From positions 62,001 through 126,000 of IMG/VR virus record IMGVR_UViG_3300034108_001154: DNA of 64,000 nt; one strand, 5' to 3'. The first letter of the stretch is position 1, and each line of letters begins with the position of its first letter. The notes beneath the pieces were generated by a model that searched no databases, was not told the origin of the DNA, and saw only the letters and a program-made list of their open reading frames with translations. This document shows positions 3,797 to 62,231 of the stretch, in pieces. A program made the translations under genes and the position numbers. This DNA comes from a virus.

Positions 3797-3828
3797 TATA
3801 AATAAATGGATAAGACCATCTTAAAACT

Positions 3829-3879
3829 TGGTTTTTTGATATTTATATAAGGTGTAGGAAAGACACCATAATAAAACCA
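3829..3879 (+). promoter_or_regulatory. Structured leader of the SSB mRNA
   Basis: TGGTTTT (3829-3835) can pair with AAAACCA (3873-3879), enclosing a hairpin GGTGT (3851-3855) / ACACC (3863-3867). An alternative pairing uses ACCA near 3815 with TGGT at 3829. T4 gene 32 is known to control its own translation by binding a structured leader; a comparable role here is inference. Confidence 0.4.
3838..3847 (+). promoter_or_regulatory. GATATTTATA motif (possible second promoter)
   Basis: A one-base variant of the TATATTTATA motif lies inside the SSB leader, 68 bases before the start codon. It could be a late promoter for SSB or simply part of the structured leader. Confidence 0.25.
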
Positions 3880-3915
3880 TTAAAACTTAATTATAAACTT
3901 TTAAAACAAAAAACA

Positions 3916-4749
3916 ATGGCTATTAATTTAGATGCAATTAGAGGTAGACTAAACAAACTACAAAACACTGGAAGTACAAAAAACAATCTTTGGAAACCAG
4001 CAAATGGTAAGACTCAAGTGAGAATCGTACCTTACAAGTTCAACAAAGAAAATCCTTTTATCGAACTTTATTTCCACTACAACATTAACAACAAATCTTA
4101 TCTATCTCCGATGTCTTTCGGAAGACCTGACCCAATTGTTGAGTTTGCTGACAAACTTAAACGAATGGGTGATAAGGAAGATTGGAAAGCTGCTAAGAAA
4201 ATGGAACCGAAGTTGAGAACATTCGTACCTGTTATTGTAAGAGGTGAAGAAAACGAAGGAGTTAAATTTTGGGGATTTGGTAAGACGGTTTATCAGGAAA
4301 TCTTAGGTTACATCGCTGACCCAGATTATGGAGATATTACCGACCCAACAACTGGTAGAGATATCACTATTGATTATGTATCAGCTGAAGATGCAGGAAC
4401 TTCTTATCCTGTAACTACAATTAGAGTTAAACCAACTCAAACTCCTATTTTGGAAGATTCTGAAAAATTGAAAGCAGCAATGGAAGGTCAAACTAACATT
4501 ACTGATATCTATCAGGAACTTTCTTACGCTGAATTAAAAGGTGTATTAGAAGGGTGGTTGAATCCAACTGGTGATGAAGGTTCTGAATCAACTTCACAAT
4601 CAACATTATCAACACCGGCTCCGGCTCCACAATCGGCACCAGCAGCAGCTCCAATTAAAAATGAAGCATTCGCCGCTACACCAGCAGTTGAGGAACGTAA
4701 GAAAATGGATGATGTAGCATCAGCATTTGATGACTTATTCAACAACTAA
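3916..4749 (+). CDS. 32: Single-stranded DNA-binding protein (gp32-like)
   Basis: The 277-residue protein resembles T4 gp32 in length and plan: a basic N-terminus (RGRLNKLQ), an OB-fold core rich in aromatics (about 25-215), a Pro/Ala/Ser linker (about 220-255) and an acidic C-terminal tail ending DDVASAFDDLFNN, the part that in T4 contacts partner proteins. It contains no cysteine, so the zinc site of T4 gp32 is absent. It coats ssDNA during replication and recombination. UvsX follows directly, which fits a recombination/replication operon. Confidence 0.85.
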   Translation: MAINLDAIRGRLNKLQNTGSTKNNLWKPANGKTQVRIVPYKFNKENPFIELYFHYNINNKSYLSPMSFGRPDPIVEFADKLKRMGDKEDWKAAKKMEPKLRTFVPVIVRGEENEGVKFWGFGKTVYQEILGYIADPDYGDITDPTTGRDITIDYVSAEDAGTSYPVTTIRVKPTQTPILEDSEKLKAAMEGQTNITDIYQELSYAELKGVLEGWLNPTGDEGSESTSQSTLSTPAPAPQSAPAAAPIKNEAFAATPAVEERKKMDDVASAFDDLFNN

Positions 4750-12759: not shown

Positions 12760-12963
12760 ATGCCAATACTAAGAGGTCAGTCTCACCCGTCATCAAAATT
12801 GACAGATGAGCAGGTTATACAAATAAGAAGGTTATGGAAAATGGGACACCGAAATGTTAGAGTAATTGCTCAAAACAACAAATGTTCCTCAGCCAATATT
12901 CTAAGAATTGTGAGAAATGAGACATGGACACACTTAAATGAATTTTGGACTGGTAGTTTATGA
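12760..12963 (+). CDS. Small helix-turn-helix DNA-binding protein
   Basis: The 67-residue protein reads SSKLTDEQVIQIRRLW, then a turn, then VRVIAQNNKCSSANILRIV and a final TWTH, the pattern of short HTH domains often attached to phage HNH endonucleases. Here it stands alone. It overlaps the Mom-like gene by four bases and may act as its regulator or DNA-targeting partner; this is inference. Confidence 0.6.
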   Translation: MPILRGQSHPSSKLTDEQVIQIRRLWKMGHRNVRVIAQNNKCSSANILRIVRNETWTHLNEFWTGSL

Positions 12964-13727
12964 AAGAAAACAAACAATATTGCGATACTTCAAAGCTATC
13001 AATTAGATTAATAACCAAATCGGTAGCAAAGGATATTATAGTAAACAATCATTATAGTGGTTTGTGGACTAAAGTATCCTATGCTATTGGTTTATTTACC
13101 TCTGAAGTAGAAGAGCATACATTCTTTAGTAATGTAGAAGATAAATTAATTGGAGTTGCTTGTTATGGTGACCCAATAGGTAGAAGTGCTGGGCAATCAA
13201 TTACACCCCTATTAGAACGGGATGAGGTATTAGAATTAACTCGATTATTTGTATTTGATGGTTATGGTTCTAATATTGAAAGTTGGTTCCTATCTCAAAC
13301 ATTTGATTGGTTAAGAGAAAATGTACCAAACATTAAAGCACTAATATCATATTCAGACCCGAAAGAAGGACATTGTGGTACTATATATCAAGCCACAAAT
13401 TGGTTGTATCAGGGTAACAAACTAAGATTTAACGATAGTTGGGATTTTCGATGGGAAGAAGATGGTGATTGGCACCACCAACGAACATCTTATGTCAAAT
13501 TTGGAACTAACAATCCAACTGAAATCCAAAAGATAGCATCATCTACGTTTTGGATACGAAAGAACCCAAGAAAACATAGATATGTGTATATTCTCTCAAA
13601 AGGTGGCGAACGTAGGAAACTTATGAAAACCATAAAGCACCCATTATTCCCATATCCAAAGGAAAATGAGGAATTTATAGAACAAATTACAAAAATGGAA
13701 CCGATTAATTTGGAAATATCAAATTAA
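12960..13727 (+). CDS. Mom-like DNA modification protein, copy 1
   Basis: The 255-residue protein resembles the Mom/GNAT-like family: an N-terminal VNNHYSG block, LELTRLFVFDGYGSNIES in the middle, and ALISYSDPKEGHCGTIYQA plus NWLYQG. Phage Mu Mom adds a carbamoylmethyl group to adenine N6 and blocks restriction. A paralogue lies at 14118-14921. The last codons contain the promoter of the next gene. The family call is by motif only; the actual DNA modification is not known. Confidence 0.65.
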   Translation: MKENKQYCDTSKLSIRLITKSVAKDIIVNNHYSGLWTKVSYAIGLFTSEVEEHTFFSNVEDKLIGVACYGDPIGRSAGQSITPLLERDEVLELTRLFVFDGYGSNIESWFLSQTFDWLRENVPNIKALISYSDPKEGHCGTIYQATNWLYQGNKLRFNDSWDFRWEEDGDWHHQRTSYVKFGTNNPTEIQKIASSTFWIRKNPRKHRYVYILSKGGERRKLMKTIKHPLFPYPKENEEFIEQITKMEPINLEISN

Positions 13728-14117: not shown

Positions 14118-14921
14118 ATGAAAGAAGAAGGTAAACATTATGTTGATGCCAGTAGAGTAAGTGTAGCTCCTATTGCTAAATCTATCGCTAAAGATATGAT
14201 TGTTAAAAAACACTACACTCATGCTTGGACAGCATGTAGATACGCATTGGGTATCTATTATAGAGAAGATGAAACATCAGTTGGGTTTTCAGATAACAAA
14301 TTAGTTGGAGTAGCAGTTTATGGGTTCCCTGTTGGAGCCAAAGCACCAACATCGGTATGTGATGGGTTAACAAAAGATAACATCTTAGAACTTACCCGTT
14401 TGTATGTTGATGATGGATATGGTTCAAATATTGAAAGTTGTGCATTAGGTAAAACATTCCAATGGATTAGAGAAAATGATACTAATATTAAAGTATTACT
14501 ATCATACGCTAATAATGGACAAGGACACGTTGGTGGGATATACAAAGCTACCAATTGGATTTATCAGGGATTAAATACTGATATTGCATTGATGCCAAAT
14601 TGGGGAATTTCATTAATTAATGACCCATTCGATTGGATTCATAGTAGGACAGTTTATAATAACTGGGGAAGTGGTAATTTGGAGCATCTTAGAAAGGAAA
14701 TTGGAAAGGATGGATATAAGGAGTTTTGGAGAAGAGAAGAACCACCAAAACATAGGTATATTCAAATATTACCCCAAAATAAGAAGGAGAGAAAGGACTT
14801 GATGGGTAGATTAAAACATCCAATACAGCCATATCCAAAGGATTTAAACGATTATAATACCGAAGTAGTACATCACACTACATACGCACCAGAAGAGAGT
14901 AATGACATCAATTTTTGGTAA
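14118..14921 (+). CDS. Mom-like DNA modification protein, copy 2
   Basis: The 267-residue protein shares its whole layout with the gene at 12960: KKHYTHAW, LELTRLYVDDGYGSNIES, VLLSYANNGQGHVGGIYKA, TNWIYQG, and a C-terminal PPKHRYIQ. The two are diverged paralogues, suggesting different targets or sequence contexts. A regulatory region with an inverted repeat and pseudoknots follows. The Mom call rests on motifs. Confidence 0.65.
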   Translation: MKEEGKHYVDASRVSVAPIAKSIAKDMIVKKHYTHAWTACRYALGIYYREDETSVGFSDNKLVGVAVYGFPVGAKAPTSVCDGLTKDNILELTRLYVDDGYGSNIESCALGKTFQWIRENDTNIKVLLSYANNGQGHVGGIYKATNWIYQGLNTDIALMPNWGISLINDPFDWIHSRTVYNNWGSGNLEHLRKEIGKDGYKEFWRREEPPKHRYIQILPQNKKERKDLMGRLKHPIQPYPKDLNDYNTEVVHHTTYAPEESNDINFW

Positions 14922-14927
14922 AATACT

Positions 14928-14950
14928 AACTTATTGATAATCAATTAGTT
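14928..14950 (+). other. Near-perfect inverted repeat
   Basis: AACTTATTGA and TCAATTAGTT flank a TAA centre, with one mismatch in ten pairs. It lies between the second Mom-like gene and the next promoter and has no T-run after it. It could be an operator or a transcript-end hairpin. Confidence 0.4.
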
Positions 14951-14970
14951 ATAAAATAATTAAAAAACAT

Positions 14971-15001
14971 TTTGCTATATGAATTATAATTCGTATCTTA
15001 G
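14971..15001 (+). promoter_or_regulatory. Promoter for the DGQHR/HNH gene
   Basis: TTTG (14971-14974), 19 bases, TATCTTAG (14994-15001). The middle element reads ATGA instead of ATCA. Transcription from here gives a leader of about 100 bases holding two predicted pseudoknots. Confidence 0.6.
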
Positions 15002-15013
15002 TGTTATAAAGAT

Positions 15014-15042
15014 AGGGTAAGAACTCACCCTTATATGAGTTC
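15014..15042 (+). promoter_or_regulatory. Predicted H-type RNA pseudoknot 1
   Basis: Stem 1 pairs AGGGT (15014-15018) with ACCCT (15027-15031). Stem 2 pairs GAACTC (15021-15026) with GAGTTC (15037-15042). The two interleave, with loop 1 of two bases (AA) and loop 3 of five bases (TATAT), and the stems abut without a gap. This is feasible H-type pseudoknot geometry. Confidence 0.6.
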
Positions 15043-15053
15043 AAAATAAACAA

Positions 15054-15085
15054 TGTGGTAAAGGTATCACCACAACAACGATACC
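15054..15085 (+). promoter_or_regulatory. Predicted H-type RNA pseudoknot 2
   Basis: Stem 1 pairs TGTGGT (15054-15059) with ACCACA (15069-15074). Stem 2 pairs GGTATC (15063-15068) with GATACC (15080-15085). Loop 1 is AAA and loop 3 is five bases. The design copies pseudoknot 1 with different sequence. It ends 18 bases before the ATG. Confidence 0.62.
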
Positions 15086-15103
15086 AAAAAAAATTAAATT
15101 ATT

Positions 15104-16627
15104 ATGGCTATTAAAAAATCAATTAGCGCAAAAGTTCTTTCTGGTGGAACTCTAAACAAACTAAGAGAAATGTCCCCTTATATTTATGTGGATAAGCATC
15201 AATTACAAAGATTGCTTGATAAGTGGGAGGATACAACATCAGCAAAACATATGAAAGCGTGTTTAATTGGACACTCAAATATCTACACAATTGTATTAGT
15301 AAGTATTGATGGATGTTTAGACTATTGTGAATCATTGATATCTCAATATTCTGAAGGAGATGACAGATATGAATCTGTTAAAGAAACAATTGATTACTTA
15401 CAAAACCTAACAAAGTTAGGATATCGTTATCTAAATATAGATGGTCAACATAGAGTGGAATGTTATTCTGACTATTTAAATTCCAAATTTACAATTACAG
15501 AATCAGTAATTGATTTAATCGAAAGTAAAGATGGTAATACAATACCATTTGAAATGAAAGGTATATATTTCAAAGATATGCCGGAACTTACTCAAAAGCA
15601 AGTATTGGATTTACCAATTACAATTGTATTAGTTGAAAAAGCAACTTTGCAGGATATGGTTGATATTACAATCTATACCAATATCGGAGAACCTTGGAAT
15701 GATAATGAACGAAGAATTATCATACCATCTCAATTCAATAGATTCCTACATTCATTTATGAATAATAACCCATTATTAACAGCAATGTTTAATAATACAA
15801 AGAATCTATCAAGCGATTACTCTCTTTTGAAAAAGGGTGATGCACTTATAATAGCTGAATGGTTTGCATATTATTACAACGTATTGGAGGGTAACATATA
15901 TAGTTGGCCAAAGAATTCTATGTTAGATACTATGGCTTCAATTGAAGGATTACCAAAACATAGTAAAAAGAGAATGAATGATACTAAATCATTAATCAGT
16001 AAATCGATAGAATTAGCAAATTCAGCCGGAGATGTTAAATTTGAAAGAACATTCTTAGATAACTTATTTATATTAATGACGGTATTGAATACTCCATCTC
16101 ACCCAATGAATAATAAAGATAAGGAGATAAAAATTAATAGTTATAAAAAGTTTATCGATTGGTTTGCAAAAACTGAAGCAACTTTGAGAAAGGAAGATGA
16201 ATTCCTTATAGACCCGGCAACTGGAAAAGATTATGTACATCCTATTACTGGTAAGAAATCAACAAACGCCGAATCATTTAAAAGAAAATGTGGAGCTAAG
16301 AAAACGGATGATATACAAATTCGTTCTACTATGATTATGGAAAAGTTTTATAAAAGTTATGATAAACTTTTCGCTAGTGGTGTTATTACTTTAATTGATA
16401 CTACAAACTATACTAAAAAACAAAAATTAAACGCAGCAATTCAAAATGATTGGATTGATGCTGATGGGAATGAGTTCACATTTGAGCAACTAATGGGTAC
16501 TAATTCAATTATGGAAGGTGACCATATTGATGCTAGAGCAAGTGGTAATGAAACTACTATACAAAATTTAGTAATCAGAAATAAAACATCAAATATCAGA
16601 AAATCAAATAAAGCAATTTTAAAATAA
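15104..16627 (+). CDS. DGQHR-domain protein with C-terminal HNH nuclease
   Basis: The 507-residue protein has YLNIDGQHRVE (about 107-117), the ParB/DUF262-like motif of DndB and GmrS-type proteins, followed by YTNIGEPWNDNERR, as in DUF262. Near the C-terminus MEGDHIDARASGNETTIQNL with later Asn/Lys residues looks like an HNH active site. GmrSD-type enzymes of this plan cleave modified DNA. Here it sits beside two Mom-like genes. It could degrade host DNA, exclude other phages or act as a homing-like enzyme. The structured leader implies tight translational control. Confidence 0.65.
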   Translation: MAIKKSISAKVLSGGTLNKLREMSPYIYVDKHQLQRLLDKWEDTTSAKHMKACLIGHSNIYTIVLVSIDGCLDYCESLISQYSEGDDRYESVKETIDYLQNLTKLGYRYLNIDGQHRVECYSDYLNSKFTITESVIDLIESKDGNTIPFEMKGIYFKDMPELTQKQVLDLPITIVLVEKATLQDMVDITIYTNIGEPWNDNERRIIIPSQFNRFLHSFMNNNPLLTAMFNNTKNLSSDYSLLKKGDALIIAEWFAYYYNVLEGNIYSWPKNSMLDTMASIEGLPKHSKKRMNDTKSLISKSIELANSAGDVKFERTFLDNLFILMTVLNTPSHPMNNKDKEIKINSYKKFIDWFAKTEATLRKEDEFLIDPATGKDYVHPITGKKSTNAESFKRKCGAKKTDDIQIRSTMIMEKFYKSYDKLFASGVITLIDTTNYTKKQKLNAAIQNDWIDADGNEFTFEQLMGTNSIMEGDHIDARASGNETTIQNLVIRNKTSNIRKSNKAILK

Positions 16628-16632
16628 AATGG

Positions 16633-17754
16633 ATGAGAGTATTAGTAATACCTAATTACACAAATTTTGGTATGGCAAAAGACATCAATAGGGATTCGTT
16701 CCTATTGGTGTTTAAGTCATTTTTAGACAACACCGAAATAGGAAAAGAATGGGAATGGATTCTCCCATACCCAGATTTAAATAACCACCCTGGTATAATC
16801 AATCAATTTGAATATCCCAATGTTAAGTTGGTTAAAATGGATGGATTGGATTGTTTTCCACCAAAAATGAGAGTAGATTATCCCAATAATTTCTTCAACC
16901 GAATTATTGAAAAATATAATGGTGAATTTAATCTAATTTGGTCACATTTACCTGAATGGACTAATGAGTTTAAAATTACTCGTATTTACAATAAAACACA
17001 ACCTATTATTGGTTATTGTCATTGGTGGGAAATTAAAGATAATGGTGCTAGAGATGATAATTCATTTTGGAGAAATGTGAAAGGCATGTTACAAATGAAG
17101 GTTTGTGGTGTAAACTCACAATGGGTTAAAGATTTGGTTATTAAAAGAGCAAAAGAAACATTTAAATCGCATATTACTGATAAGTTAGAAGAGATTATTC
17201 AACCTTGGTATTTAGGATGCGATTCAGCAACACCAACTCAAACATATAAACCAAAAACTATTGTGTTTAATCATAGAGAAGGTGTATATACAGGTTCAGA
17301 TTGGTTTTTTGAAACTATGGATAACCTATGGAAAGAAAGACAAGATTTTGAAGTTTGGACTTCCTTAAACAATATGAATAAACCATATACCAAATATATT
17401 GGACATGCTGATAGGAATGTTTATATGAATCAATTAGCAGAAGCTCATTTTGGTGTAGGAACGTTTCAAGGTTATTCAGCATGGAGTATGAGTGCAACTG
17501 ATGGGTTAAGTAGAGGTGTACCTTATTTACTACCTAATGATTTTTGTTACCCTGAAATGGTTGGTAACGAATACCCACTTCTTTACAATGGAAAAAAAGA
17601 ATTTAAAGAAATGGTTGTTAAATTATTAGATGGTGAAATTGAAAGACCTGATATAACTCACATTGCTCAATCACTATTATGGGAATCTCAACTTAAAAGT
17701 TGGAAAATCGAAGAAAACTTCGTAAATAATGCGAGAAATACTTTTGATAAGTAA
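16633..17754 (+). CDS. GT-B glycosyltransferase, possibly a DNA-modifying one
   Basis: The 373-residue protein has a two-lobed layout with a C-terminal block from NHREGVYTGSDWFF to SRGVPYLLP, typical of GT-B enzymes. It lies five bases after the DGQHR/HNH gene and before the DNA polymerase, far from the main sugar island. T4 glucosyltransferases that act on DNA are GT-B enzymes, so DNA glycosylation is possible but not shown. Confidence 0.62.
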   Translation: MRVLVIPNYTNFGMAKDINRDSFLLVFKSFLDNTEIGKEWEWILPYPDLNNHPGIINQFEYPNVKLVKMDGLDCFPPKMRVDYPNNFFNRIIEKYNGEFNLIWSHLPEWTNEFKITRIYNKTQPIIGYCHWWEIKDNGARDDNSFWRNVKGMLQMKVCGVNSQWVKDLVIKRAKETFKSHITDKLEEIIQPWYLGCDSATPTQTYKPKTIVFNHREGVYTGSDWFFETMDNLWKERQDFEVWTSLNNMNKPYTKYIGHADRNVYMNQLAEAHFGVGTFQGYSAWSMSATDGLSRGVPYLLPNDFCYPEMVGNEYPLLYNGKKEFKEMVVKLLDGEIERPDITHIAQSLLWESQLKSWKIEENFVNNARNTFDK

Positions 17755-17796: not shown

Positions 17797-20313
17797 TTGT
17801 ATTCAAACATATATTATCAAAGAGAAAAGAACTTAGTCCATTTGTGGGATGATACTCAAGGGTATAGGAGTTTTCCATATACCCGATATGCTTATGAAAA
17901 AGCAGTAAATGGTGAGTACACCACTCTATATGGAGATAAGGTGACTAAGATTTATAAATTCAAAGGAGATGACCCTACACTATTTGAATCAGATGTACCT
18001 GAAACTACGAGAGTTTTAGTAGATATGTACACCAATTCGGATATTCCATCTGAAGGACACGTTACACTTACATATGATATTGAGTGTGAGATGGAGAGTG
18101 GATTACCTGACCCAGAAAAAGCAGAGAATGAATTAACATCAATTGCACTGCATGATTCTGCTACTAACCAATATTGGGTATTAGTAATGGATAAAAAAGG
18201 TCAAATGGTAGAGCGTAAAACTGATAAAGCTATCGTTATTCCGTTTACACATGAAGAAGATATGTTAATGAAATATTTGGAATTGTATGAGTATATAAAT
18301 CCATCTATTGTAACTGGTTGGAATATTGATTATTTCGATACACCAATGTTATATAATCGTATCAAACGTTTATTGGGTGAAAGACATGCAAATAGATTAT
18401 CACCAATTGGACAGTGTTTTTGGTCACCATATCGTAAAAGGTATTTTATGGCAGGTGTATCTTATTTGGATTACCTTTCACTTTATAAAAACTTCACATA
18501 TTCAGAATTAGATTCATATAGATTAGATACCATTGCTCAAAGAGAATTGGGTAGGGGTAAGATTGAATATGAAGGAAACTTAGATATCTTATTCAGAGAT
18601 GATATTGAAAAGTTTATTGAGTATAACTTAGTCGATGTTGAGTTAGTTGTTGATTTTGATAAGAAACTACAATTCATAGATACCGCTAGAGGTATCTGCC
18701 ACGCAGGACACGTTCCATATGAAGATTTCGTATATTCATCAAAGTATTTGGAAGGAGCATTATTATGTTATCTTAAAAGAAAGAACATTGTAGCACCTAA
18801 CAAACCTGCTGATAGAAGAGAGAGAATGGAAGCTCTTAAGGAAAATAATGAAGAGAAATTCATTGGAGCATATGTTAAAGCACCTATTGTTGGAAAATAT
18901 GATTGGATTTATGATTTGGATTTAACTTCCCTATATCCATCAATCATTATGAGTATCAATATCTCACCAGAAACCAAAGTTGGTAAGTTGGAAGATTGGG
19001 ATGCACAAAAATACTTAAAAGGTGAAGTTAATGAGTATAAAGTTGGTGATAATTACATAACAAAAGAAAATCTAAAAATTCTATTAGAGAAAAGTAAATA
19101 TTCCGTAGCATCAAATGGTGTTATGTATAGAACGGATACACCGGGTTGTATTCCTGATATATTGGACTTATGGTTCTCTCAAAGGGTTGAATTTAGAAAA
19201 TTAGAAAAAAAATATGGTGATGAGGGAGATAAAGAAAAGTACGCATTCTATAAAAAACGCCAGCTGGTTCAGAAAATTTTACTTAACTCTTTATATGGGG
19301 TGCTTGGTCTTCCTGCCTTTAGGTTCTATGATGTTGATAATGCTACCGCTGTTACCACTACGGGACAGACAGTTATTAAAAGCACAGCTGATATGGCTAA
19401 CATCAAATACAATAAGGAGCTTGGCACTCCTGATGCTGACAGTAATATATATATTGATACTGATTCGGTATTTTTCTCCGCAGTTCCTCTTTTAGACCAT
19501 CGAATTCCAAATTGGAAAAATGATGAGCAGGATGTAATTGCTGGTTATGTAAATGATATAGCTGGTGAGATGCAGAATTACCTAAATGACTTCTATGATA
19601 TCTTAGGTAAAAGGGTATTCAACATTGATAAGCATAGATTTGAAATTAAAAAGGAATTCGTATCAAAAGCTGGTATTTGGATTGCTAAAAAGAGATACGC
19701 ACAATGGATTATTTCCGATAATGGTGTACCTTGTGATAGATTGGATGTAAAGGGATTAGATGTGGTTAGGTCATCATACCCAGCGGCTTTCCGTAAGTTT
19801 ATGGGAGAAATATTAATTGAAATTCTTAGAGGTGATACGGAAACCCAAATAACTGATAAAGTTTATAATTTCAAAAAAGAATTGGTTAATATGGATGTTG
19901 TTAAGATTGCTAAAGCCGGAGCAGTTAAAAACTTAACAAAGTACATGCCAAAGAAGAAACAACAAACGGCAATGTTTCAATTCCCATCAGGTTGCCCAGC
20001 ACACGTTAAAGCATCTATTGCATATAATCAACTATTAATTCATTTTGGTTTAGAAAATCAATTTGCACCATTAAAAGATGGTGATAAAATTAAATGGGTA
20101 TATCTTAAACAAAACCCATTTGGATTAGATGCAGTTGGATTAAATGGTTATAGTGACCCAAAAGAAATTATGGACTTAGTAACTACCTACATTGATTATG
20201 ATAAAATCTTTGAAAGGGAACTCCTTAAGAAATTGGAAGATTTCTATGGAGCATTAAATTGGGGAGAGGTTTTATCCTCAACCAAAACAGCAGAAAAGTT
20301 TTTTGCATTTTAA
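17797..20313 (+). CDS. 43: Family B DNA polymerase (gp43-like)
   Basis: The 838-residue protein has exonuclease motifs TYDIECE, GWNIDYFDTP and YNLVDVELV, and polymerase motifs DLTSLYPSI, KILLNSLYG and IDTDSVF. It is the replicative polymerase with 3'-5' proofreading. The reading frame starts at a TTG; the next Met is about 70 residues later and would remove the N-terminal beta region seen in T4-like polymerases, so TTG is the likely start. It lies 23 bases after the -7 box. Confidence 0.93.
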   Translation: MYSNIYYQREKNLVHLWDDTQGYRSFPYTRYAYEKAVNGEYTTLYGDKVTKIYKFKGDDPTLFESDVPETTRVLVDMYTNSDIPSEGHVTLTYDIECEMESGLPDPEKAENELTSIALHDSATNQYWVLVMDKKGQMVERKTDKAIVIPFTHEEDMLMKYLELYEYINPSIVTGWNIDYFDTPMLYNRIKRLLGERHANRLSPIGQCFWSPYRKRYFMAGVSYLDYLSLYKNFTYSELDSYRLDTIAQRELGRGKIEYEGNLDILFRDDIEKFIEYNLVDVELVVDFDKKLQFIDTARGICHAGHVPYEDFVYSSKYLEGALLCYLKRKNIVAPNKPADRRERMEALKENNEEKFIGAYVKAPIVGKYDWIYDLDLTSLYPSIIMSINISPETKVGKLEDWDAQKYLKGEVNEYKVGDNYITKENLKILLEKSKYSVASNGVMYRTDTPGCIPDILDLWFSQRVEFRKLEKKYGDEGDKEKYAFYKKRQLVQKILLNSLYGVLGLPAFRFYDVDNATAVTTTGQTVIKSTADMANIKYNKELGTPDADSNIYIDTDSVFFSAVPLLDHRIPNWKNDEQDVIAGYVNDIAGEMQNYLNDFYDILGKRVFNIDKHRFEIKKEFVSKAGIWIAKKRYAQWIISDNGVPCDRLDVKGLDVVRSSYPAAFRKFMGEILIEILRGDTETQITDKVYNFKKELVNMDVVKIAKAGAVKNLTKYMPKKKQQTAMFQFPSGCPAHVKASIAYNQLLIHFGLENQFAPLKDGDKIKWVYLKQNPFGLDAVGLNGYSDPKEIMDLVTTYIDYDKIFERELLKKLEDFYGALNWGEVLSSTKTAEKFFAF

Positions 20314-61769: not shown

Positions 61770-62231
61770 ATGGCATATAATAAATTCCGTTGGTACACAT
61801 CTAAACTTAGAAAGAAGCCACTACCAAAATCAGCTCCATTACTCCGAAGGATTCAAAATGGTGATTTTGAAGTTTCACCTTATTTTGATGAGGCAAAGTA
61901 TAATAGAGAACTTGCGATTGAAGCTTATGAATTGACTAAAAAGAATGCACTTATTTCAGACCCAGCTCAATTAGAGATGGAGGCATTGTATGCTGGTAGA
62001 ATTAAAAGAGTAAAAGCTCTTAAGTTAGATGAAGTAGGTAATACTGATGAGAATAAACGATTGCGAGAATTACAAAGAGCATTAGCCGAAGAATTCGAAA
62101 AGGATTTATGGGAGAAGGCTATGGAAAGAAAGCGGGGTAAGGGTACTACTGAAGATTTATATTGGTGGTATAAAAAACAATGTAAGCTTGGTTACACTAA
62201 ATCAGAATTACAAATTAGAGGAATCATATGA
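61770..62231 (+). CDS. Hypothetical helical protein
   Basis: The 153-residue protein is basic at its N-terminus and strongly helical and charged after residue 40. No enzyme motif. It overlaps the next small gene by four bases. Confidence 0.6.
   Translation: MAYNKFRWYTSKLRKKPLPKSAPLLRRIQNGDFEVSPYFDEAKYNRELAIEAYELTKKNALISDPAQLEMEALYAGRIKRVKALKLDEVGNTDENKRLRELQRALAEEFEKDLWEKAMERKRGKGTTEDLYWWYKKQCKLGYTKSELQIRGII

Follow-up and report, generated by a model that had tools for sequence, protein, structure and literature searches.

The 64,000-nucleotide (nt) stretch of DNA analyzed here (the window) covers positions 62,001 to 126,000 of the 143,445-base virus record IMGVR_UViG_3300034108_001154, and nearly all of its long open reading frames (ORFs) lie on the + strand. 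One of them encodes a 507-amino-acid (aa) protein with a DGQHR motif and a C-terminal HNH-like motif, a putative GmrSD/DndB-like nuclease. The leader of this gene contains two consecutive H-type RNA pseudoknots, PK1 and PK2, both placed between the predicted start and the ATG (Table 1). The four stems listed in the original prediction were found base for base in the window sequence, with all 23 pairs being Watson-Crick pairs. The layout proposed for both knots was also found: stem 2 abuts stem 1, loop 1 measures 2 or 3 nt and loop 3 measures 5 nt. The period from PK1 to PK2 was 40 nt in the window and 41-42 nt in the homologues.

The boxes upstream of PK1 fit the Bacteroidota promoter consensus, which consists of TAnnTTTG at -7 and TTTG at -33 (PMC7366714). 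The -7-like box was found again in homologous leaders as TTCGTATATTTG, and the same promoter motif was located upstream of many genes with dedicated leaders in related phages. In the groups tested, the first stem began 6-11 nt after the predicted start. The distance from the end of PK2 to the ATG was 17-20 nt in the four leaders tested, and in all four the initiation region was A/U-rich and predicted to be unpaired. No pairing of the ribosome-binding region with the knots was predicted. As the knots leave the region before the ATG unsequestered, a simple blocking hairpin is disfavored and a bound protein or a role in stability is favored. At the start codon itself (window 15105-15135) a weak hairpin was predicted in all groups tested, with GCUA/UAGC in groups A and B and GCAU/AUGC in groups C and D; its register shifts.

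Table 1. Coordinates of the leader, its gene and its surroundings in the window, and contigs (numbered with the prefix L) used for comparison
Feature	Position or contigs	Strand	Details
Mom-like DNA modification protein, upstream flank	14118..14921	+	phrog_1384, E = 1.1e-46
Predicted Bacteroidota-type promoter	14971..15001	+	TTTG (14971-14974, -33-like); TATCTTAG (14994-15001, -7-like); predicted start ~15005
PK1, H-type	15014..15042	+	Stem 1 AGGGT (15014-15018)/ACCCT (15027-15031), 5 base pairs (bp); loop 1 aa (15019-15020); stem 2 GAACTC (15021-15026)/GAGTTC (15037-15042), 6 bp; loop 3 tatat (15032-15036)
Linker between knots	15043..15053	+	11 nt, A-rich, unpaired, AAAATAAACAA
PK2, H-type	15054..15085	+	Stem 1 TGTGGT (15054-15059)/ACCACA (15069-15074), 6 bp; loop 1 aaa (15060-15062); stem 2 GGTATC (15063-15068)/GATACC (15080-15085), 6 bp; loop 3 acaac (15075-15079)
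Translation-initiation region	15086..15103	+	A/U-rich, predicted unstructured, AAAAAAAATTAAATTATT (contains UUAAA)
DGQHR...HNH protein, putative GmrSD/DndB-like nuclease	15104..16627	+	507 aa
Putative glycosyltransferase-like gene, downstream flank	16633..17754	+	Name is a guess; no PHROG match
Family B DNA polymerase	17797-20313		After the putative glycosyltransferase gene
Group A leaders	Window and identical contigs		PK1 + PK2
Group B leaders	L006, L007, L008		Protein 92% identical; PK1 + PK2
Group C leaders	L249, L092		Protein 63-64% identical; PK1 + PK2
Group D leaders	L273, L310		Protein 59% identical; PK1 + PK2
Group E leaders	L196/L301, L300		Protein 58-60% identical; three hairpins + one pseudoknot
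Hotspot contigs with exchanged genes	L127, L128, L129, L132, L146, L155, L162, L168, L183, L195, L216, L221, L222, L228, L236
C[G/U]GAGN-loop hairpin leaders	L176:6381, L078:5765, L080:1381, L106:5794, L213:7864, L219:7844, L221:7866

Conservation of the two pseudoknots

Homologous leaders were gathered by searches with the protein and with neighboring genes and were sorted into five sequence groups. PK1 and PK2 were both kept at the same position in groups A to D. With the register set by hand, allowing loop-1 lengths of 1 to 3, eight of the 23 pairs were changed on both sides among the homologous leaders (five in PK1 and three in PK2). The sole pair lost in some leaders of these groups was the outermost stem 1 pair of PK2; a further group C contig (L174) had a mismatch in the outer stem 2 pair of PK2. 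Two G-U variants (L007, L092) can pair on the mRNA strand only. In sub-alignments of equal loop length, PK1 was 100% paired (shuffled mean 84%, slid registers 27-44%) and PK2 97% paired (shuffled 87%, slid registers 26-58%), figures that are supportive rather than strong statistics as each sub-alignment holds only three distinct sequences. The absence of compensatory changes from homologous leaders had been named as the observation that would tell against the structure, and the leaders do contain such changes. The proposed selection for structure is thus supported by compensatory changes in all four stems, a common geometry in four sequence groups and the identity of a 28-nt PK1 between two of them. 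Comparison of the sequences establishes that selection acts on both knots as RNA structures, that they have a common core, and that they are associated with this gene family in its hotspot.

The original prediction also held that the two knots differ in sequence. This was correct in so far as they are not identical; they nevertheless have the common core ..GU-loop 1-..UC|AC..-loop 3-GA.., and one descriptor (stem 1, loop 1 of 1-4, ..UC|AC.., loop 3, GA..) fits both. When 6.5 Mb of related phage DNA was searched on both strands, the descriptor gave 25 distinct matches, 19 of which were PK1 or PK2 of leaders of the DGQHR/HNH family. Within groups C and D the two knots are near-copies of each other (PK1 GAG.T.T.GATATC.ACTC.TATAAC.GATATC; PK2 GAGGT.AA.GGTATC.ACCTC.AACAAC.GATACC). 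Because PK1 and PK2 satisfy one shared descriptor they are, as judged from their letters, one element used twice. Between groups C and D, PK1 was identical at 28 of 28 nt, loops included, while the genes were 78% and the promoter regions 68% identical. Sequence is therefore held as well as structure, which fits recognition by something.

Single pseudoknots of comparable strength are no rarity: at or below -19 kcal/mol, about 4 on each strand were expected in the 143-kb record, and 12 and 4 were seen. Reasoning from one knot in one sequence would therefore be weak. The strong single pseudoknots inspected elsewhere in the record were mostly within coding sequence or at a terminator, and an apparent one in the 126-143 kb part was dropped as it sits within an ORF. 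Among the larger intergenic gaps of the record that were listed, PK2 was outscored only by one terminator-like hairpin. Two knots within one 94-nt leader were obtained in none of 1500 dinucleotide shuffles, either for the window leader or for each of seven homologous leaders, and at a looser cut-off in none of 600. Together with the compensatory changes in all four stems of the homologues, this leaves virtually no room for a chance alignment of short complementary words. The exact PK2 DNA pattern occurred in 44 stretches of viral contigs, of which nine were leaders of the DGQHR/HNH family; the remaining matches were unrelated and mostly in coding sequence. Matches to tandem pseudoknots before genes outside this family in 286 loci were likewise judged to be coding or unrelated.

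The encoded protein and its hotspot

The DGQHR motif of the 507-aa protein occupies residues 113-117, and D113, G114, H116, R117 and H474 were invariant across 12 homologues. DGQHR has been linked to GmrSD (PMC4619093), and the motif reading of the protein is consistent with that. The protein resembles GmrSD/SspE and DndB/DGQHR proteins (PMC4619093, PMC4507180) in combining DGQHR with a C-terminal HNH-like motif; unlike them, it has no significant Pfam, PADLOC or fold match and is encoded by a phage beside Mom-like genes. It did not match the GmrSD_N profile, which other hotspot proteins do match. None of the PADLOC defense proteins matched, no Pfam toxin scored above its cut-off, and no relevant NCBIfam family was hit. 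A sequence search of solved structures gave no credible match, and neither tblastn against named phages nor a search of bacterial and archaeal genomes gave any. The AlphaFold model had a mean predicted local distance difference test (pLDDT) score of 72.8, with values below 50 in the C-terminal HNH part.

The slot flanked upstream by the second Mom-like gene and downstream by the putative glycosyltransferase gene (window 14118-17754) holds different genes in related contigs. These include genes for GmrSD_N proteins with or without HNH, DGQHR-type proteins and several without a Pfam match, and most have their own promoter. By gene cluster, structured leaders were present in 15 of 29 cases in the hotspot and in one of 30 elsewhere; the Fisher p = 2e-5 is descriptive, since promoter pattern, structure cut-offs and slot definition were chosen after examples had been seen. 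The hotspot genes with structured leaders include those for GmrSD_N and/or HNH proteins, and ordinary genes have plain leaders of 10-40 nt. The lone cluster with a structured leader outside the hotspot is a gp32-like single-stranded DNA (ssDNA)-binding gene (3916-4749; PF08804, E = 5e-14), the gene whose T4 relative carries a pseudoknot operator. The phage encodes two Mom-like paralogues, at window 12960-13727 and 14118-14921 (phrog_1384). As judged from the organism list, the relatives of its family B polymerase in named phages are mostly T4-like.

Possible functions of the leader

The leader probably exerts post-transcriptional control in cis. The control element would be one H-type pseudoknot that occurs twice, preceded by the 5' end of the mRNA and followed by an A/U-rich ribosome-binding region that stays open. 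Over the 64 kb, the Rfam covariance models gave no match at the gathering score (best sub-threshold E = 2.7). The RNA element in the leader is real and conserved but has no Rfam counterpart, and its mode of action would come closest to that of phage translational operators. Of the functions originally proposed, a protein-binding operator or switch for the putative nuclease would fit best, and a ligand sensor is disfavored by the varying loops and the missing Rfam match. More specifically, a protein-bound translational operator like that of T4 gene 32 has about an even chance. In the T4 operator, a ~28-nt pseudoknot at the 5' end precedes an unstructured stretch that covers the ribosome-binding site and contains UUAAA (PMC535899); operators of this type have UUAAA/UAAA repeats in this A/U-rich stretch. 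The leader studied here resembles it (PMC535899, PMC3014915) in having a 5' H-type pseudoknot of ~28 nt followed by an open, A/U-rich initiation region, which contains UUAAA in groups A, C and D, in a T4-like phage with a family B polymerase. It differs in having two pseudoknots rather than one, in the distance of the nearer knot from the AUG (17-20 nt against about 40 or more in T4) and in its gene, which encodes the DGQHR/HNH protein and not the ssDNA-binding protein. The working model is autoregulation of T4 gene 32 with the recognition element in duplicate. A protein would recognize the knots, nucleate there, spread across the adjacent A/U-rich initiation region and repress translation. 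The binder might be the encoded nuclease itself or another RNA- or ssDNA-binding protein of the phage, for example the gp32 homologue of the same genome. Synthesis of the DNA-cutting enzyme would thereby be delayed or capped, possibly up to the point at which the phage has modified its own DNA. In favor of this model are the covariation in both knots, with two G-U variants that suit the mRNA strand only, their common descriptor, the identity of PK1 between groups C and D, the T4-like layout, and the concentration of structured leaders in the hotspot, where genes for GmrSD_N and/or HNH proteins are among those that have them and the gp32-like gene is the one exception elsewhere.

Several observations weigh against this operator model. 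The sequence ties the knots to neither of the two putative binders. The assignment of the 507-aa protein as a putative DNA-cutting nuclease is based on motifs (DGQHR; E-G-D-H...N...N); its HNH profile match is sub-threshold (E = 0.022, 15.4 bits against a curated cut-off of 21.4), and the fold search gave nothing significant, the best match being SspE (E = 0.09, probability 0.13). UUAAA is present in the initiation region of groups A, C and D and absent from that of group B. The group E leaders have a different layout: an AAATC-like spacer follows each of three hairpins, whose loops are of the AGA type, and one weaker pseudoknot comes last (AAGGT, GTGAC, ACCTT, GTCAC in L301, with the compensatory change ATGAC/GTCAT in L300). 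The element is also not obligatory: about half of the hotspot genes have plain leaders, and operon-borne homologues (40% identical) lack the leader structure, which assigns the element to the promoter-bearing form. Finally, a second leader class precedes several unrelated hotspot genes, so that at least this class is not cargo-specific; it consists of a hairpin that has (GA)GGU/ACC(UC) as its stem and C[G/U]GAGN as its loop, with a UAAUAAC-like sequence after it.

The main rival is a 5' mRNA shield, in which the knots would make the start of the transcript resistant to decay or serve as a structured spacer, so that expression of the hotspot genes is raised or prolonged without any specific ligand or repressor. 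The position of the first stem close to the predicted start agrees with this, as do the many unrelated folds (pseudoknots and hairpins) in hotspot leaders compared with the plain leaders of ordinary genes, and the occurrence of one hairpin class before different genes. The pseudoknot-bearing T4 gene 32 transcripts are, moreover, the most stable T4 mRNAs (PMC3014915). However, a simple hairpin would suffice for a shield, which also leaves unexplained why there are two copies with a common core and why PK1, loops included, is absolutely conserved between groups C and D. We regard it as possible but doubtful.

A further reading, in which the duplicated knot is the RNA ligand of the nuclease itself, so that the leader would repress translation of its own message and also titrate the enzyme or inactivate it, appears unlikely. 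If true, it would be a self-limiting protein-RNA module that allows a phage to harbor, next to its Mom-like modification genes, an enzyme that cuts DNA and may be specific for unmodified DNA; its logic would be type III-like, with an unrelated enzyme and without a terminator. A type III toxin-antitoxin-like RNA antidote proper, in which the knots, alone or excised from the mRNA, bind and inhibit the encoded nuclease, is improbable. Like the antitoxin RNAs ToxI, CptI and TenpI (PMC5086642), the knots are similar-sized H-type pseudoknots in tandem; their period is 40 nt, they immediately precede the gene for a possibly toxic enzyme, and there is one promoter. Where type III antitoxins consist of a tandem array of near-identical pseudoknots, the leader has two diverged units that share a core and come close to identity in groups C and D only. 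The enzyme is a putative DNA nuclease and not an endoribonuclease. Type III systems are recognized by a terminator and a ToxN homologue (PMC5086642). No Rho-independent terminator was found between knots and gene on the + strand of 14900-15300, the downstream protein had no match to ToxN/CptN/TenpN endoribonucleases in profile searches or to any fold at significance, and the PADLOC, Pfam and NCBIfam searches described above were negative. As two defining features of type III antitoxins, the terminator and the ToxN-like protein, were not found, identity with them was rejected.

Several riboswitch classes use small H-type pseudoknots, and tandem riboswitches exist. A metabolite-sensing riboswitch, in tandem for a sharper response, has these precedents and is still quite improbable here: Rfam gave nothing credible at E <= 5, the loop bases vary outside the short core and leave no invariant loop core of the usual ligand-pocket size, and the element was seen solely before the DGQHR/HNH phage gene family. 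It is highly improbable that the inverted repeats work at the DNA level, whether as an operator, as terminators of antisense transcription or as a site of recombination in hotspot exchange; gene exchange does occur at the slot, but two G-U pairs suit + strand RNA only, half of the slot genes lack structured leaders and the long ORFs are nearly all on the + strand. The - strand shows two stem-loops with T-rich tails, and the antisense terminator was rejected because groups C and D do not retain these tails.

The leader is not assigned to the gene 32 operator, to type III antitoxins or to any riboswitch family. In T4-like phages, RNA hairpins hold back the translation of homing endonucleases (I-TevI, mobE; PMC3014915). 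The present case is similar in that a leader structure would control a putative phage endonuclease in a context of gene exchange, and different in that the sequence before the AUG stays open. The two-knot leader is likely a built-in control switch, of a layout not cataloged before, for a potentially dangerous enzyme. It represents a conserved, covarying two-pseudoknot leader before a gene other than gene 32, in phages with Bacteroidota-type promoters, within a hotspot where about half of the putative phage nucleases have structured leaders of diverse fold. If the operator model is true, RNA control would be a general means by which these phages restrain enzymes of this kind, and the leaders would form a natural series in which to study pseudoknot control of translation where Shine-Dalgarno sequences are not used.

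Other structured leaders

The leader of the gp32-like gene (window 3799-3915) is long and contains a strongly conserved hairpin (GGTGT-AGGAAAG-ACACC), AATAAAACC and UUAAA repeats (L311-L390 compared). A pseudoknot was predicted in the leaders of some relatives (L322, L323, L354, L373, L379). This leader is likely a relative of the T4 gene 32 operator.

The hairpin array of group E is a repeated element with variable stems (L300:2380-2497, L301:2377-2497). By inspection, hotspot pseudoknot leaders of other architecture were located at L132:1884-1958, L222:7857-7925, L146:4135-4222, L128:3897-3971 and L184:6766-6834. L128 and L184 have a covarying hairpin stem (GAACT/AGTTC, GAAGT/ACTTC), the GCCC loop of which faces a GGGC ~22 nt downstream, just before the start region. 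The leader of a 24%-identical DGQHR-like protein (L236:4218-4323) has the appearance of a multi-branched fold and not of a pseudoknot. Three stable hairpins in series, one with a UUCG loop, were observed upstream of a thioredoxin-like gene (L165:257-330, L175:6390-6460).
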